Source: an uncultured Candidatus Melainabacteria bacterium
Lineage (GTDB): Bacteria; Cyanobacteriota; Vampirovibrionia; Gastranaerophilales; Gastranaerophilaceae
Length of the DNA: 30,227 nucleotides
NCBI GenBank assembly: GCA_934754735.1
Contig: CAKVJE010000013.1
Coordinates: forward strand, 1 to 30,227
Reading direction: 5' to 3'
The position numbers were made by a program, and so were the translations under genes. Within the stretch, counting starts at the first letter, position 1, and each line of letters opens with the position of its first letter. Positions 6,601 through 30,060 of the stretch are shown here, in pieces. The notes beneath the pieces are model-generated. The model searched no databases. It was given only the letters and a program-made list of their open reading frames with translations, and had not been told where the DNA came from.

Positions 6601-7917
6601 TTATGCTGGTATAATTTCACATGCAACACCTTTTGGAATTTTTTTGTCTTGATTAATTTTTTCAATTGTTTTTCTAATTTCTTCTTCATGGTTTTGTAAA
6701 TATGCTTTATAATCTGTAGAATTTGCAAATTTTGGTTTTCCGCCATCTATGCTAATACTTACAATTTCATTGTCTCTTACAAGAATTTTATCTTTGCCTC
6801 TTGTAATTTCCATTGTTCCGATTTTGAAGCCTTCTGGAATATTGCCTTTATCTAAAAATTTCTTTTCTGTAATTGCGCTGATATCACGTCCTGCTTTTTT
6901 AGCATCATACAAATATGCTTCAAGATCTTTAGAGCCTTTTTGTAAAGCTTTTAATCTTGTCAAACTTCTGTAGTCTGTAATGACATCACCTATGGTCTTA
7001 TCTTTTGGTATAGAAATAGCACTACGTTTAAATTCTGCAACATTATCTCCAATTCGAGTTTTATAAACAAAATCACGCAAATTTGTTTCTTTACTCATAA
7101 TTGTTTCTGTATCACCGTTTAAAATTTTGGTTACCATTTCCTCCACTTCTGTGGCTCGTTTGTTTGCAGTAGTATTACCGCTTGTTATAATTTTGCCATC
7201 TTTGTCTATTAGAATTTCTGTTGTAGGCTTGCCTGAATTTTTTCCTCCAGCATCCAAAATTGATTTAATTTTATATTCACCATTTGTCTTTCGACTGAAT
7301 TCCACTGTATAATTATGACCTACTGTTTTAATATCAAATGTACCACTTGTTACACTGGTTTCCCCAGTTTTAAAACGAAGTCCGCTTAATCTTCTAAATT
7401 CTTTATCGCTTTCCAATATTTGTTTTATTCGATTTGCGTCATTTATAGTTTCAGTTTTTCCTGGAACATAATATTCAACTTTTCCATTCTTTGCATATTT
7501 AACAACAAGATTTTCTAACTTCTTGTTATTACTTTTTGTAGCTTCTTTAGCAGCTTCTGTTACTGCATCTTTGCCTTTACCGAACATTCCGGTAAGTTTA
7601 TCCCATAATTTTTTTCTATGCTTACCTTTGCAAGCTACTTGATCAATAATAAGAGCGCCGGCACCGATTGCAATAGCTCCTAATCCGAGTACAGAACCGG
7701 TGCTAGAATCAGGTGCTTCTGAATAATCTGCTTGTGGCAAATTTGTAACGCCCGCATTTGTTGCTACAGAAGCTGATTGTTGAACTTGTGGGACTTGAGT
7801 TGCACTAGTTTGCGTTACATTTTGAGTTCCCTTAAAATTTGGATTGTAAGTTTGTAATGTTGCCAATAGATATGGATCAACATTCCCAGCGCTTAAAGCT
7901 TGAATTGCATCTGTCAT
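6601..7917 (-). CDS. Unknown membrane-anchored protein, 438 aa
   Basis: I do not recognise this family. The N-terminus (MTDAIQALSAGNVDPYLLAT, then a Gln/Thr/Ser/Val-rich stretch to about residue 72) is low in complexity and has no cleavable signal peptide. A single hydrophobic Gly/Ala-rich segment (about 75-92) is followed by a strongly basic patch (CKGKHRKKLWDK, 96-107), which suggests one membrane span with the long C-terminal part on the cytoplasmic side by the positive-inside rule. Residues 125-438 are soluble, Lys/Glu/Thr-rich, with short beta-like strands (for example TVEFSRKTNGEYKIKSIL). ATG 7915-7917 has AAGGTG seven bases upstream. It has its own terminator and a conserved upstream module shared with the 56-aa and EF-hand genes, so it is likely a regulated single-gene unit. 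Confidence 0.8.
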   Translation of the reverse strand: MTDAIQALSAGNVDPYLLATLQTYNPNFKGTQNVTQTSATQVPQVQQSASVATNAGVTNLPQADYSEAPDSSTGSVLGLGAIAIGAGALIIDQVACKGKHRKKLWDKLTGMFGKGKDAVTEAAKEATKSNNKKLENLVVKYAKNGKVEYYVPGKTETINDANRIKQILESDKEFRRLSGLRFKTGETSVTSGTFDIKTVGHNYTVEFSRKTNGEYKIKSILDAGGKNSGKPTTEILIDKDGKIITSGNTTANKRATEVEEMVTKILNGDTETIMSKETNLRDFVYKTRIGDNVAEFKRSAISIPKDKTIGDVITDYRSLTRLKALQKGSKDLEAYLYDAKKAGRDISAITEKKFLDKGNIPEGFKIGTMEITRGKDKILVRDNEIVSISIDGGKPKFANSTDYKAYLQNHEEEIRKTIEKINQDKKIPKGVACEIIPA

Positions 7918-9801: not shown

Positions 9802-11427
9802 ATGTCAACTTTTGGAGATTACAAATCATATAAAAAGTATGAACCGGCTTATGCAAGCTGGAAAAATCAGCGTGATATTCAAGAATCAAAGCGTATTGCA
9901 TACTTAAAGCAAAATCCAAATGAAATTTCAAAGGAAGATATTCAACGAGGTCAAGCGCTTATTCGTGCTATTGATATTATGGATGAATATTCTCAGAAAC
10001 GTGCGCAGGATACGGAAGTCGCAACTCAATCCGTTGTCTCAATGGCACAAGAAGTTATGATTTTTGCAGGAATGGGGTTAGGTGCACTAGTTAGTAAGTT
10101 AAAACCTGTTAATAATTTAATAACTAAACTCATGAAAAATACAAAACGCGCACCTTTTGTAAGTATGATAATCCCTGTTGTTATTGGTGGTGCTTTAGGC
10201 ACAATTGCATCCTTCCCTTTACAAGCTTGGGGTGCGAAAGCCGAAGTTTCTGCGTCCAGACGCGGACGATTTGAAGCTATGCGCAATGAACTAAAAAATC
10301 CAAATGGTTTTGCGGTTCTTACTGATGAACAAATATCTGAAGCTAATGAAAAGGCTAAAAATATTGTTCTTGCAGAAGATAAAAAAGGGAATAAAATGAG
10401 TGCCAAACTTTCAGAAGCTTTTGGTATTAACACATTGAAATCAATGGCATTAGATGGTGGAGAATACAAAAAGCAGAAAAAAGCTTTTGAACTTGAGCTG
10501 GCAGAAGACAATGCCCATATTAATGATGTAATGAGTAAAGATGATATTGAAAAAGCTAAAAAAGACCAACAACTTTTAACAAAGCTTGTAGAAAAAATTG
10601 ATATTGCATCACAAGACTATGCCGAAAACGCGGAACTTGCAGCCGGCACATTTGTAACGGGTGTAATGGCATTATCATTTTTAGGTGATTTGGCGGTATC
10701 TAAACTAATGAAGATGTGCAAAGTACAGTCTGCACAAAAGATTTCTGTAGTTACTAAAATTGCTGGGATAGCAGCTTCTTTAGGAGCAACGCTTTGGACT
10801 GCACAAATTGCAAAACAAGCTTCAAGAGTTGGCAGATACAAAGTTAAACAAGAATTGATGCAAAATCCGGAAGCTTTTGTTTATGTGGACGATAAAAAAG
10901 CAAATGGAATAAAAGATTTTGAATTAAATACAACAAAAAAACAAAGCATGTTTGAATTCTTGAAATCTGCTTATAAAAACAATAAAGAATACGAAAAATA
11001 TCAAAAAACAACAGCAAAAAACGAAAGACGTTTCTATAAGGCAATTGAAGATTTAGAGCTTAGTGAAGAACAAATAAGAGATGCAAAACAATTACAGAAA
11101 AACGCATTTAGAACGTTTAATAAAGTTGATGACAATTCTCAAAAATACTCTGAAAGTGTTGAAGCTCTTGGACAAGCAAGTATGTTTCCAATTAATTTAA
11201 TTTGTACTGGTGTTGGTATGGCAATTGGAATACCACTATTATTAAAGAAAACAAAAACATCTTTGCAAGGGGCTGAAAACTTTGCAAAATACCTCGGAGT
11301 TACGCTTCTTAGCTCATTGCCGGCAGTTTTAGCAAACGCATATATTACAAAACAACAGAAAAAAGCTTCTCGAGTTGCCGATATGCTTGCGATTAATGAA
11401 TTGCAAGATTATCGCAGTTTTAAATAG
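9802..11427 (+). CDS. Unknown membrane protein with three internal repeats, 541 aa
   Basis: No known family is recognised. The protein has about six hydrophobic segments, in pairs: 80-98 and 119-139, 280-300 and 315-335, 460-481 and 496-515. Each pair is preceded by an amphipathic helix of similar sequence (KEDIQRGQALIRAIDIMDEY at 44-63, KDDIEKAKKDQQLLTKLVEK at 246-265, SEEQIRDAKQLQKNAFRTFN at 421-440). Each pair is followed by a basic ASR-x-GR-like motif: SASRRGRFEAM (150-160), QASRVGRYKVK (339-349) and KASRVADMLAI (521-531). So the chain is three copies of helix-TM-TM-basic motif; the N-terminus (about 20-40) looks like a further half copy. No signal peptide. AGAAGG precedes the start. Predicted inner-membrane location; function unknown. 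Confidence 0.82.
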   Translation: MSTFGDYKSYKKYEPAYASWKNQRDIQESKRIAYLKQNPNEISKEDIQRGQALIRAIDIMDEYSQKRAQDTEVATQSVVSMAQEVMIFAGMGLGALVSKLKPVNNLITKLMKNTKRAPFVSMIIPVVIGGALGTIASFPLQAWGAKAEVSASRRGRFEAMRNELKNPNGFAVLTDEQISEANEKAKNIVLAEDKKGNKMSAKLSEAFGINTLKSMALDGGEYKKQKKAFELELAEDNAHINDVMSKDDIEKAKKDQQLLTKLVEKIDIASQDYAENAELAAGTFVTGVMALSFLGDLAVSKLMKMCKVQSAQKISVVTKIAGIAASLGATLWTAQIAKQASRVGRYKVKQELMQNPEAFVYVDDKKANGIKDFELNTTKKQSMFEFLKSAYKNNKEYEKYQKTTAKNERRFYKAIEDLELSEEQIRDAKQLQKNAFRTFNKVDDNSQKYSESVEALGQASMFPINLICTGVGMAIGIPLLLKKTKTSLQGAENFAKYLGVTLLSSLPAVLANAYITKQQKKASRVADMLAINELQDYRSFK

Positions 11428-22595: not shown

Positions 22596-23252
22596 ATGAA
22601 AAAACAAATAATTAGTGCAATCTTACTTGTATTCATATCTTCACCGGTTTTTGCGTTTGGAAAAGTCGAAAAAAATCCGGTAAGTATTTATGAAAAAATT
22701 AATCCGGCTATTGTAACCGTAGATTCGCAAATTCCGGACGGTTTATCTTGCGGTACAGGTTGCATTATTGATAAATCAGGTGTAATTTTAACCAGCGCGC
22801 ATGTTGTTGATATAGGGAAAACTGTAGTTGTTACAATGAGTAATGGCCAAAACTACGATGCCAAGGTTTTAAAACATTTAGGAAATAATAAGGATATTGC
22901 GCTTCTTAAAATTGATGCAAAAAAGGATTTAAAAACTGTTAAACTTGGTAATTCTTCTAAAGTTAAAGTTGGACAAAAAGTTTTAGCAATAGGAAATCCG
23001 TTTGGATTTAGCGGAACGCTTACGCAAGGAATTGTATCAAGGATAGATTACACAAAAAATAGAATTCAAACTGATGCCGCAATTAACCCCGGTTCATCAG
23101 GCGGGCCTTTGTTGAACACAAATGGCGATGTTATAGGTATCAATCAGGCTATTTATAATCCGGATAATAATATATCAAATATCGGTATTGGTTTTGCGAC
23201 TCCAATAAATTTGGTTAAAGAGTATTTAGAAGAAAATAGTGCATCTTTCTAA
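22596..23252 (+). CDS. Exported HtrA/DegP-like serine protease without PDZ domain
   Basis: A 218-residue trypsin-fold protease. A signal peptide (MKKQIISAILLVFISSPVFA, 1-20) sends it to the periplasm. The catalytic triad is complete: H69 in TSAHVVD, D100 in NNKDIALLKID and S168 in INPGSSGGPL. The IGNPFGF loop is typical of HtrA. The chain stops directly after the protease domain (GFATPINLVKEYL), so both PDZ domains of classical DegP/DegQ are missing; it resembles short HtrA-like proteases. Two cysteines (52 and 56) could form a disulfide. A strong AAGGAGG site precedes ATG 22596. Likely a single-gene unit for periplasmic protein quality control; substrates unknown. Confidence 0.92.
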   Translation: MKKQIISAILLVFISSPVFAFGKVEKNPVSIYEKINPAIVTVDSQIPDGLSCGTGCIIDKSGVILTSAHVVDIGKTVVVTMSNGQNYDAKVLKHLGNNKDIALLKIDAKKDLKTVKLGNSSKVKVGQKVLAIGNPFGFSGTLTQGIVSRIDYTKNRIQTDAAINPGSSGGPLLNTNGDVIGINQAIYNPDNNISNIGIGFATPINLVKEYLEENSASF

Positions 23253-26622: not shown

Positions 26623-28629
26623 TTATTTTTTAATACTCAAAACAGGTCTTCCAAAGCTAATTTTTGTAACTCTTAAATCTCCGTTCTCAACAAGCGTATC
26701 AATTAATTCGCCAATCGCTTTTTGACGCCAACCGGCTAAAGCTCCGAGAAATTTTGAAGAAGTTACATTTTCGTTATAACCGTTGTCTTTAATTTGTCTG
26801 CTTCCTGCAAGAATTTTTGCAAATCCGCTTTTTCCATATTGTCCGCTAAATGTGGTAACGCATTCCAATACAATATTTTTAGCTTCTTCTACAGAAACTT
26901 TTTCCTTCTCTTCTTCAAATTCAAATTCTAATGCTAAATTATTCGGTTGAACATCGCCAACTTCTTTCAAATTCTCATAAAATTCTGCAACACGATTATC
27001 AACCAAAACTTTTTCAGGCTCAAAATTCTTTAAATAAAGTCCCTCTAGCGTCTTAACACGACTCATTGCAACATAAGATTGTCCGCGTTCAAAAATTCTT
27101 GAGCAATCAACAACAAGTCTATCAAGTGTCATACCTTGAGATTTATGAATTGTAATACCATAGGCCAGTTTTAACGGGAATTGCATTCTCTCAGCGACAA
27201 CTCGGTCATTGTAAAAATATTCAAACTTGTTTTTTGGAATACTTGCAACAACACCATTATCAAATTTTATACTTATTGCATCATCTCCAAAACCTTCAAT
27301 CACACCGCAAGCACCGTTTATTAAGCCTTTATTGAAATCCATATTTACAAGTAACATCACTCTTGCGCCAAGTTTTAATGCAATCTCTTTTTCCGCCCTG
27401 CAATTTTTAGAAAAGATTTCTAAAATATAACTTTCGCTTTCCGTAAATCCATCCGTAATAAGTCGGTTTCCGCGATAAACTCCGTCTTCTGCATAAAAAA
27501 TCTTTGCAGGTTCTTCAATCATGTTGAACTTTGCCAAATTATATCTGTTTGCTTCTTCGTTAGTTGAAAAAATATGTAAAATATCTGAATCTTCATCTTC
27601 TACACAACGAGTTTTAAGGAGTTCTACATCCTCTACTTCAAGGCAATTTTCTCTCATGTGCGCCAGTGCTGTGATAAAACTTTCTTCGTTTTGCCTGTAG
27701 TTTTTCTTTAGTACAACATTTTTAAGCCCTAAATTTTTCCAAACCGGAGAATCAAAACAATAACGCCTAATTTCGCCTTCTTTTTCTACAGGCGGAAGCT
27801 GAAAAAAGTCGCCGATAAAAATAACTTGAATTCCGCCAAACGGGTCGTTGCATTCTCTTACCGCGCGCAAAACTTCATTAATATATTCAAACGCCTCAAT
27901 ATTAAGCATTGAAATTTCATCAACAGCTAGAATTTTGCAATTCATAATTTGTCTATATTGTGTCGGACGTTTTTTGATTTTTTCTACGGTATTAAAAACC
28001 GTATTTCTGCAAAGTCCAACTCCTGCCCAAGAATGTAATGTTTGACCCTTTACGTTAACTGCAGCAATTCCGGTTGTGCTTGTAATGGTTAATTTCTTTT
28101 TAAAATGTTCTTTTAATTTGTTTAGAATGTAACTTTTTCCTGTTCCGGCAAAGCCTGTCAAGAAAACGTTTTCGCCATTTTTTAGAAGTGTTAATATTTT
28201 TAAATAAGTTTCGTCCTCTTCTTCTTTTGGTTTAATAACTTCTTTTTGCTTAGGTTTTTTAACGACTTCATATTCGTCGGCAAATTCTAATTCTTTATCA
28301 AAATTTATTTGGTCAAAATTAATCATGCTATAAAGACAGAGCTCGCCTTTTCCGCTAATTCGAGTAAAGTTTATAGGTTTTTGACCTTCTTTAAGCTCAT
28401 ATTTAAGTTTATTCTCTGCGACCCATTCGTTAGAAGAAAATCCATAAATACGTTTTAAACAATCCAAAATACATTGCGTGATTGACATATATTTGCGTCC
28501 GTCTTGATTAACATGAATTGCAGAAATATTAGGCATTAAATTTTCTGCCAAATTCTGTAGCTCTGTATAATCAGCATTTTCAGATGTAAATATATTTAAT
28601 AGCTCAGTCGGATTTGAAAAATTGTTCAT
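26623..28629 (-). CDS. PIF1-like SF1 helicase with C-terminal RQC-like domain
   Basis: A 668-residue ATP-dependent 5'-3' DNA helicase. A variable N-terminal region (1-140) of unknown fold precedes the helicase core: Walker A GFAGTGKS (159-166), motif Ia STTGIAA, DEIS (237-240), GDFFQLPP (273-280), KNYRQ (309-313), GITIHKSQG (491-499) and YVAMSRV (519-525), the PIF1/RecD2 set. Residues 585-668 (FSGQYGKSGFAKILAGSRQI, later GWRQKAIGELIDTLVENGDL and GRPVLSI) resemble the winged-helix RQC domain of RecQ helicases. PIF1 enzymes unwind G-quadruplexes and stalled forks. The open frame extends 62 codons upstream to a TTG inside rpmE, but ATG 28627-28629 has an extended -10 box six bases before it and is preferred. 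Confidence 0.9.
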   Translation of the reverse strand: MNNFSNPTELLNIFTSENADYTELQNLAENLMPNISAIHVNQDGRKYMSITQCILDCLKRIYGFSSNEWVAENKLKYELKEGQKPINFTRISGKGELCLYSMINFDQINFDKELEFADEYEVVKKPKQKEVIKPKEEEDETYLKILTLLKNGENVFLTGFAGTGKSYILNKLKEHFKKKLTITSTTGIAAVNVKGQTLHSWAGVGLCRNTVFNTVEKIKKRPTQYRQIMNCKILAVDEISMLNIEAFEYINEVLRAVRECNDPFGGIQVIFIGDFFQLPPVEKEGEIRRYCFDSPVWKNLGLKNVVLKKNYRQNEESFITALAHMRENCLEVEDVELLKTRCVEDEDSDILHIFSTNEEANRYNLAKFNMIEEPAKIFYAEDGVYRGNRLITDGFTESESYILEIFSKNCRAEKEIALKLGARVMLLVNMDFNKGLINGACGVIEGFGDDAISIKFDNGVVASIPKNKFEYFYNDRVVAERMQFPLKLAYGITIHKSQGMTLDRLVVDCSRIFERGQSYVAMSRVKTLEGLYLKNFEPEKVLVDNRVAEFYENLKEVGDVQPNNLALEFEFEEEKEKVSVEEAKNIVLECVTTFSGQYGKSGFAKILAGSRQIKDNGYNENVTSSKFLGALAGWRQKAIGELIDTLVENGDLRVTKISFGRPVLSIKK

Positions 28630-28644
28630 AAGCCGATTATAGCA
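28630..28644 (-). promoter_or_regulatory. Extended -10 just before the helicase ATG
   Basis: TGC-TATAAT (TATAAT at 28636-28641) ends six bases before the ATG, and no ribosome-binding site lies between. This suggests a leaderless transcript. The -35 region is weak. Confidence 0.5.
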
Positions 28645-28664
28645 CAGATTATATTTATGTATAC

Positions 28665-28695
28665 AAAAAAAGAAGCCCGTAGGCTTCTCTTTTTG
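28665..28695 (-). terminator. Terminator after rpmE
   Basis: AGAAGCC (28671-28677) pairs with GGCTTCT (28682-28688) over a 4-base loop, with further A/T pairing outside and a seven-T run on the minus strand. Confidence 0.85.
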
Positions 28696-28711
28696 TAAAA
28701 TCTTAACAAAA

Positions 28712-28912
28712 CTATTTTGTTCCGTAACGTTTTTTGAATCTTTCAACACGTCCTTCAGAGTCAAGAATTTTTTGTTGACCAGTGTAGAATGGGTGGCAGT
28801 TAGAACAAATTTCAACTGTTAGACCGTCTACAACAGAACCTGTTTCAATTTCGTTACCGCAAACACATTTGATAACAGTTTTTTTATAATCTGGATGGAT
28901 TCCGTTTTTCAT
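28712..28912 (-). CDS. rpmE: Ribosomal protein bL31 (zinc-binding form)
   Basis: A 66-residue large-subunit protein, [20 protein letters not shown] onward. The zinc-ligand cysteines C16, C18, C36 and C39 define the C+ (zinc-containing) form rather than the YkaB-like zinc-free paralogue. The [10 protein letters not shown] and DSEGRVERF segments are typical. The open frame runs 19 codons further upstream, but GAAGG lies before ATG 28910-28912 and the family starts with MK.G.HP. It has its own promoter and terminator and is separate from other ribosomal genes. Confidence 0.97.
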
Positions 28913-29081: not shown

Positions 29082-29450
29082 TTATAAGTTATTATTCGTA
29101 TTTTTTTTTGCTAATTCTTGACGATATTTTTGTGTATTTTTGTGATATGAGTATATTTTTGTTAAATTTTGGACAATGTTTTTATTGAAATAAATAAGAG
29201 GTTCTTTTAGAAGACTTGACACTTCTTTATCGCGATAATTGCAAATTTCTTCAGCAGACAATTTTCCATCTTTATTGGTGTCTATAACATCAAAGCCGGT
29301 TCTCCATTTGTCTATGTCTATGTTTGTGTCTTCTTTGTTTGTGAATTGTTTATTTCGAGTGTCCCCAGCATAATATTTTTTGCTAATTGTGCCTATGTAC
29401 GATAACGTATTGTATTGTATTGTATTGTATTGTATTGTATTGTCGCTCAT
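29082..29450 (-). CDS. EF-hand protein with an in-frame pentanucleotide tract, 122 aa
   Basis: A small hydrophilic protein with no signal peptide or membrane segment. One canonical 12-residue calcium-binding loop is clear: D57-x-N59-x-D61-G62-x-L64-S65-x-x-E68 in DTNKDGKLSAEE. An acidic stretch at 40-49 may be a decayed partner. The C-terminal half is Lys/Asn/Tyr-rich and helical. Directly after MSD the DNA is seven copies of a five-base unit, translated as the periodic NTIQYNTIQYNT. As the unit is not a multiple of three, gain or loss of one copy shifts the frame, and both other frames stop within eight codons. GGAGAAACAGC precedes ATG 29448-29450. The upstream DNA holds copy C of the conserved module. 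Function unknown; likely calcium-responsive and phase-variable. Confidence 0.75.
   Translation of the reverse strand: MSDNTIQYNTIQYNTLSYIGTISKKYYAGDTRNKQFTNKEDTNIDIDKWRTGFDVIDTNKDGKLSAEEICNYRDKEVSSLLKEPLIYFNKNIVQNLTKIYSYHKNTQKYRQELAKKNTNNNL
29408..29442. repeat. Pentanucleotide microsatellite (TATTG)7
   Basis: Seven perfect tandem copies of TATTG (35 bp; CAATA on the coding strand) begin eight bases after the A of the ATG of the EF-hand gene. No other microsatellite of this length is seen in the window. Confidence 0.97.
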
Positions 29451-29484
29451 GCTGTTTCTCCTATCTATAAAAATTAAGTCGTAT

Positions 29485-29742: not shown

Positions 29743-30060
29743 ATGACAACAGCTAAAAGACAAAGAATTAGAGTTTGTTTAAGATCTTACGAACATAAAT
29801 TAGTTGACGTATCAGCTGAAAAAATCGTAGAAACAGCAAAAAGAACAGACGCTAAAGTAGCAGGTCCTATTCCTTTACCTACAAAAAGACGTATCTATTG
29901 TGTATTGCGTTCACCACACGTAGACAAGAAGTCAAGAGAACACTTCGAAATTCGTACGCACAAACGCATTATCGATATTTACGAACCTACTCAACAAACA
30001 ACTGAAGAATTGAGTAGATTAGACTTACCAGCAGGCGTAGATATTGAAGTAAAATTATAA
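29743..30060 (+). CDS. rpsJ: Ribosomal protein uS10
   Basis: A 105-residue small-subunit protein that also acts in transcription antitermination as NusE. The whole chain matches uS10: [71 protein letters not shown] and the C-terminal [22 protein letters not shown] precedes ATG 29743. In most bacteria rpsJ opens the S10 operon with rplC next, and in cyanobacteria it often closes the str operon after tuf. Here neither tuf nor rplC is beside it inside the window; a repeat element and a possible new promoter follow directly. Confidence 0.98.

Follow-up and report, generated by a model that had tools for sequence, protein, structure and literature searches.

Here, we describe a window of 30,227 nucleotides from an uncultured Candidatus Melainabacteria bacterium of the order Gastranaerophilales (contig CAKVJE010000013.1, positions 1 to 30,227), in which a gene for a small protein with a single EF-hand carries a perfect five-base repeat just inside its start. 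The open reading frame (ORF) lies on the reverse strand (29082..29450, with the ATG at 29450 and the stop ending at 29082), encodes 122 amino acids and is in frame with the seven CAATA units in its coding leader (29408..29442, reverse strand; (TATTG)7 on the forward strand, equivalently (AATAC)7). We regard the gene as a candidate translational phase-variation (contingency) locus, a reading that we consider evenly poised between being right and being wrong. Under the proposed mechanism, slipped-strand mispairing during replication would add or drop CAATA units, the EF-hand protein would be translated with 4, 7 or 10 units, translation with other unit numbers would end after 15-25 codons, and cells would be EF-hand-positive or EF-hand-negative at random and reversibly. 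Such a switch would presumably involve frequent changes in tract length and selection of both states.

The tract is perfect and uninterrupted, and its length is far above chance. Tandem Repeats Finder places it at 29407-29443 with a period of 5, 7.4 copies and 100% matches. With the tract, the window's longest run of period 5 measures 37 bases, against 12 bases once the tract is removed, and in simulated windows (300 per Markov order, 900 in all) the longest runs were 17, 18 and 17 bases at orders 1, 3 and 4, respectively. The first-pass annotation, made from the letters alone, had described seven perfect units beginning eight bases after the ATG; the units stand as described, and the distance holds if the codon itself is counted, the tract starting at base 9 of the ORF (the A of the ATG being base 1) and thus five bases past the ATG codon. 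Among the 32 classes of pentamers with four A/T bases, only 6 (three complementary pairs) are free of stop codons on both strands, and CAATA is one of them.

When frames were computed for 3-11 copies, a long product resulted at 4, 7 and 10 copies only (117, 122 and 127 amino acids, respectively), and the remaining six copy numbers gave products of 15-25 amino acids. The earlier claims that seven copies put the EF-hand protein in frame and that one unit more or fewer leads quickly to a TAG were borne out, as six and eight copies both yield 20 amino acids, with the TAG being the eighth codon past the tract in the former case and the fifth in the latter. Between the tract and residue 64 the EF-hand frame holds no ATG, GTG, TTG or CTG, and with 5, 6, 8 or 9 copies none of these codons occurs in that frame from the nearest upstream stop to residue 20; the earliest possible alternative start is a TTG at residue 64, inside the calcium loop. 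Because no rescue start precedes residue 64, loss of the frame would mean loss of the protein.

This gene would represent a known kind of locus, the translational switch driven by a simple sequence repeat (SSR), and is a fair candidate for a new instance of it. Its tract is in frame with truncation at other copy numbers, and its seven units exceed the five or more that PhasomeIt requires of pentanucleotide repeats, a cut-off set for Campylobacter (PMC6321876, available part). As described in the same part of that paper, the SSR genes of the PhasomeIt catalogue likewise have an in-frame repeat above the cut-off and yield the long product in one class of copy numbers, but the catalogue concerns Campylobacter, and 91% of the repeats found there are poly-G/C. 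The likeness to the (CTCTT)n tracts of the Neisseria opa genes extends to unit size, position and frame logic, copy number setting the frame (PMC13183285, available part). However, the opa products are surface proteins, the repeat is in the signal-sequence region and phase variation is established, whereas the EF-hand gene has no recognised surface feature and its switching is proposed from sequence. The accessible text of a review holds that reversibility and a high rate must be demonstrated before the term phase variation applies (PMC11868660), and by this standard the EF-hand gene is a candidate only.

The gene is probably real, because it has a good ribosome-binding site, a close homologue (91% identical) and probably a distant one. 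The first of these, AGGAG (29458..29462, reverse strand), was read from the sequence seven bases upstream of the ATG. A search of approximately 5.8 billion proteins gave two matches at E <= 0.001 among 6 candidates, namely P0001, the cluster to which the window protein itself belongs (3 members, on as many contigs), and P0002, a single-member cluster that aligns with 95% of the query at 91% identity. When a profile was searched at E <= 10, 354 of 729 candidates matched, and the comparisons with wider relatives cover the best 120 of these 354. In pairwise comparison, 219 of the 333 aligned pieces lay wholly inside residues 35-85 and 114 extended past this region. The pairwise score of P0054, a protein of 149 amino acids with no Pfam domain, was second to that of P0002 and ahead of that of P0010 (37% identity), and its rank in the profile search was 54th (E 3.9e-4). 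P0054 is 46% identical to the window protein over residues 19-78 and has TIS, YAG, the EF-hand, EIC and RDKEV in common with it, from which it is likely a true distant relative. Of the 120 proteins compared, P0001 and P0002 only carried the NTIQY repeat, and P0054, which is free of the tract, begins with another short leader, MVQPANNRP. If P0054 is indeed a relative, the repeat therefore sits in a variable leader ahead of the common part, and the leader carrying it seems dispensable. A start downstream of the tract that gives the N-terminus conserved in homologues had been named beforehand as a point to check; the leader of P0054 is tract-free, but in the window that stretch offers no start that could be used, and the switch reading is left standing. 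Three queries, namely the EF-hand protein, P0054 and the window's ribosomal protein S10, found no homologues among viral contigs.

Canonical EF-hand loops have D at position 1, D or N at positions 3 and 5, G at position 6 and E at position 12, and this pattern is satisfied by DTNKDGKLSAEE (residues 57-68; 29247..29282, reverse strand), which was located by the Pfam match and is identical in P0002. With this one loop the protein resembles the families PF13202 (EF-hand_5), PF13405 and PF00036; it differs from them in that the hand is single and unpaired and scores below the curated cut-offs (24.0 bits against 25.9 with E 2.4e-05, 22.3 against 25, and 21.1 against 25.4, respectively). The protein database's precomputed annotation also lists PF13202.13 for it. 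The 122-residue protein had no NCBIfam match at E <= 0.01, and its other Pfam matches at E <= 1 were weak. Five Protein Data Bank (PDB) chains matched at E <= 0.1, in every case by way of the EF-hand region, and an AlphaFold2 model built from three sequences had a mean predicted local distance difference test (pLDDT) score of 40.5. The protein is presumed to bind calcium. The description of the product as a regulator in the first-pass annotation found no support, as a calcium sensor or regulator would have its EF-hands in pairs or be coupled to an effector domain, and here there is one weak, unpaired hand and no other domain.

The same repeat occurs in other genomes. A scan of the genome_contigs collection with the EF-hand protein gave three loci, two in one Prevotellaceae-labelled metagenome-assembled genome (MAG) and one in Flavobacterium, which were apparently matched through the tract; PF13202 was present in neither of these two genomes. 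In the Bacteroidota family of that MAG, (CAATA)5 or longer was found in 4 of 200 genomes, the MAG included, and the reversed pattern in 0 of 200. These matches represent 11 separate tracts, of which 10 were examined (G071:C128 being left out). Half of the examined tracts were inside longer ORFs: those of GT2 (8 units; L065:2264-3276), hexapeptide transferase (5 units; L066:499-1145), GT11 (20 units; L067:2521-3605) and acyltransferase (13 units; L068:2671-3799) genes from two MAGs of this one family, and that of a FUT8-like gene from one of the same two MAGs (11 units near the 3' end; L059:1874-2917), in which the frame continues for 21 codons to a stop. In the first four genes, one ORF stops soon past the tract and a second opens at the tract in another frame. 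Both pieces match one family for GT2 only; for GT11 and the hexapeptide protein the downstream piece alone has a match, and for the acyltransferase the upstream piece alone, and these three genes presumably continue across the tract. For the other five tracts no ORF could be assigned: three have short open frames (43, 55 and 102 codons) next to them, and two of the five are at contig ends.

Glycan-type genes are familiar targets of phase variation, and the four broken frames look as OFF alleles would; consensus or assembly errors may also underlie broken frames in these MAGs. The Bacteroidota genes resemble the EF-hand gene in having the identical unit within coding sequence, and in four of the five the tract is where the frame breaks; they differ from it in that their tracts of 5-20 units lie 65-308 codons into the ORF, in genes of other types from another phylum, and that their switching is presumed. 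By analogy, the presence of the same unit in glycan-type genes (5 of the 10 tracts, 4 of them frame-broken) may count in favour of a switch in the EF-hand gene. These loci indicate that within glycan-type genes (CAATA)n can reach considerable length and break the frame; switching of the tract in the window is not thereby demonstrated. They also suggest that AT-rich pentamers lacking stop codons lend themselves to the making of such switches, since the same unit sits inside the Bacteroidota glycan-type genes. Elsewhere, (TATTG)5 was found in 4 stretches of the viral collection, and one contig of that collection has (CAATA)23 (L007:9148-9262), within no ORF having at least 50 codons on either side. 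In Flavobacterium, (CAATA)5 lies immediately ahead of the first ATG of an ORF (L010:1501-1525), where its length could change the start spacing.

Several results weigh against a switch. P0001 and P0002 both encode NTIQYNTIQYNT, the same 12 residues, with seven units, and no other result speaks as strongly against frequent changes in length as this identical unit number. The comparison was made at the protein level between two sequences, and protein databases list called, in-frame alleles only (4, 7 or 10 units); the invariance is weak evidence because out-of-frame alleles would go unlisted. With residues 64-122 as query, no candidate was found for a short off-state gene call, and gene callers may omit such ORFs. 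Unlike the pentamer tract, two further repeats in the gene are not the same in P0001 and P0002: an imperfect hexamer repeat reported by Tandem Repeats Finder (29309..29331, reverse strand), of which P0002 has one unit fewer in the alignment, and a run of nine A at the 3' end of the gene (29101..29109, reverse strand), where the C-terminal tail of P0002 fits one A fewer and, save one residue, equals the translation of the window DNA with one A removed. The protein is a near-orphan with four member sequences in two clusters, and relaxed constraint on its gene is possible. The Bacteroidota loci, for their part, are of another phylum and their switching is itself presumed. Of the earlier description as a contingency locus, the design was retained (an in-frame tract near the start, immediate truncation, no rescue start and seven units above the cut-off), and phase variation itself is plausible, with seven units in both P0001 and P0002, the two sequences that could be read.

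The alternative that survives best is that the tract arose by chance, as a microsatellite that expanded in a leader tolerant of it, in a gene that evolves fast under weak constraint; its length would then change no faster than expected of a repeat this long, out-of-frame forms would be mere null alleles and no switch would have been selected. We consider this a serious possibility, if on the improbable side: it accords with the near-orphan status of the protein, the different leader of P0054, the C-terminal tail of P0002 altered by a frame change and the seven units in both P0001 and P0002, but the tract is perfect and, as protein, has been kept in both. Moreover, the substitutions between P0001 and P0002 (9 of 114 residues, with the dissimilar tails, 6 and 12 residues long, and a gap of two residues left out of the count) spare residues 45-92, with 0 in these 48 aligned residues and 9 in the other 66. 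An even spread would yield 0 in that region with a probability of approximately 0.007, or (66/114)^9, for a region chosen after looking, and the pattern suggests that the product is kept.

It is unlikely that the leader is instead stable and has a direct role, either as an A-rich unstructured repeat that aids translation initiation or through the NTIQY peptide itself. The RNA structure of the start region is indeed weak and unremarkable (computed for seven copies only, with a minimum free energy of -3.64 kcal/mol and a z-score of 1.05) and P0001 and P0002 share the peptide unchanged, but P0054 manages without the repeat, and such a role needs no perfect repeat in the DNA. Overlapping TACAAT hexamers in the tract resemble a -10 box, and tract length might on that account tune a promoter, which is highly improbable: the promoter scan did give GCGACA-16-TACAAT at 29446-29419 with 9/12 matches, but the region is not enriched in promoter-like sites (9, against 6.7 +/- 2.6 in shuffles), and a promoter in the tract would begin the mRNA inside the gene, from where no start codon is met until residue 64. 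Returning to the translational switch, an extended form of it would place two slippage controls on one calcium-binding protein, with (CAATA)7 as on/off control at the start and an A8/A9 choice of tail at the end, the window and P0002 being two tail states; we regard this extension as unlikely.

Should the tract vary in populations, a small protein of the calcium-binding type without a recognised surface feature would join those under random switching, and metagenome reads would allow its on/off state to be counted. Literature searches found nothing on phase variation in Gastranaerophilales or on CAATA (as a whole word) together with phase variation, and the titles of work on phase variation, tandem repeats and frameshifts in cyanobacteria held no start-plus-tail switch of this kind. 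There was no EF-hand among the matches listed for slipped-strand mispairing and phase-variable genes, and no calcium-binding among those listed for Melainabacteria and Gastranaerophilales. The only match joining phase variation, EF-hand and simple sequence repeat concerns Beggiatoaceae repeats, and the available part of PMC5877343 contains nothing on such repeats.

The EF-hand gene is located between two ribosomal protein genes identified with NCBIfam: rpmE (L31; 28712..28912, reverse strand), which has the same direction, and rpsJ (S10; 29743..30060, forward strand), which is divergent from it. Against PDB chains, S10 scored 145.7 bits at best, with chains labelled plastid or chloroplastic ranking 11th (130.8) and 15th (127.9). 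This S10 may be cyanobacterial in appearance. A promoter-like site lies ahead of rpmE (28996-28968), such sites not being in excess. At Rfam gathering thresholds, the window gave two tRNAs only. The listed ORF of a PIF1-type helicase (26623-28815) opens at a TTG inside rpmE; translation probably starts in fact at an ATG further downstream (MNNFSNP). Two large ORFs of 438 and 541 amino acids (6601-7917 and 9802-11427, respectively) have weak Pfam matches only (E 0.089 or more). Finally, an HtrA-type protease (22596-23252) of just 218 amino acids matches the protease part of the models and seems to stop ahead of a PDZ domain.
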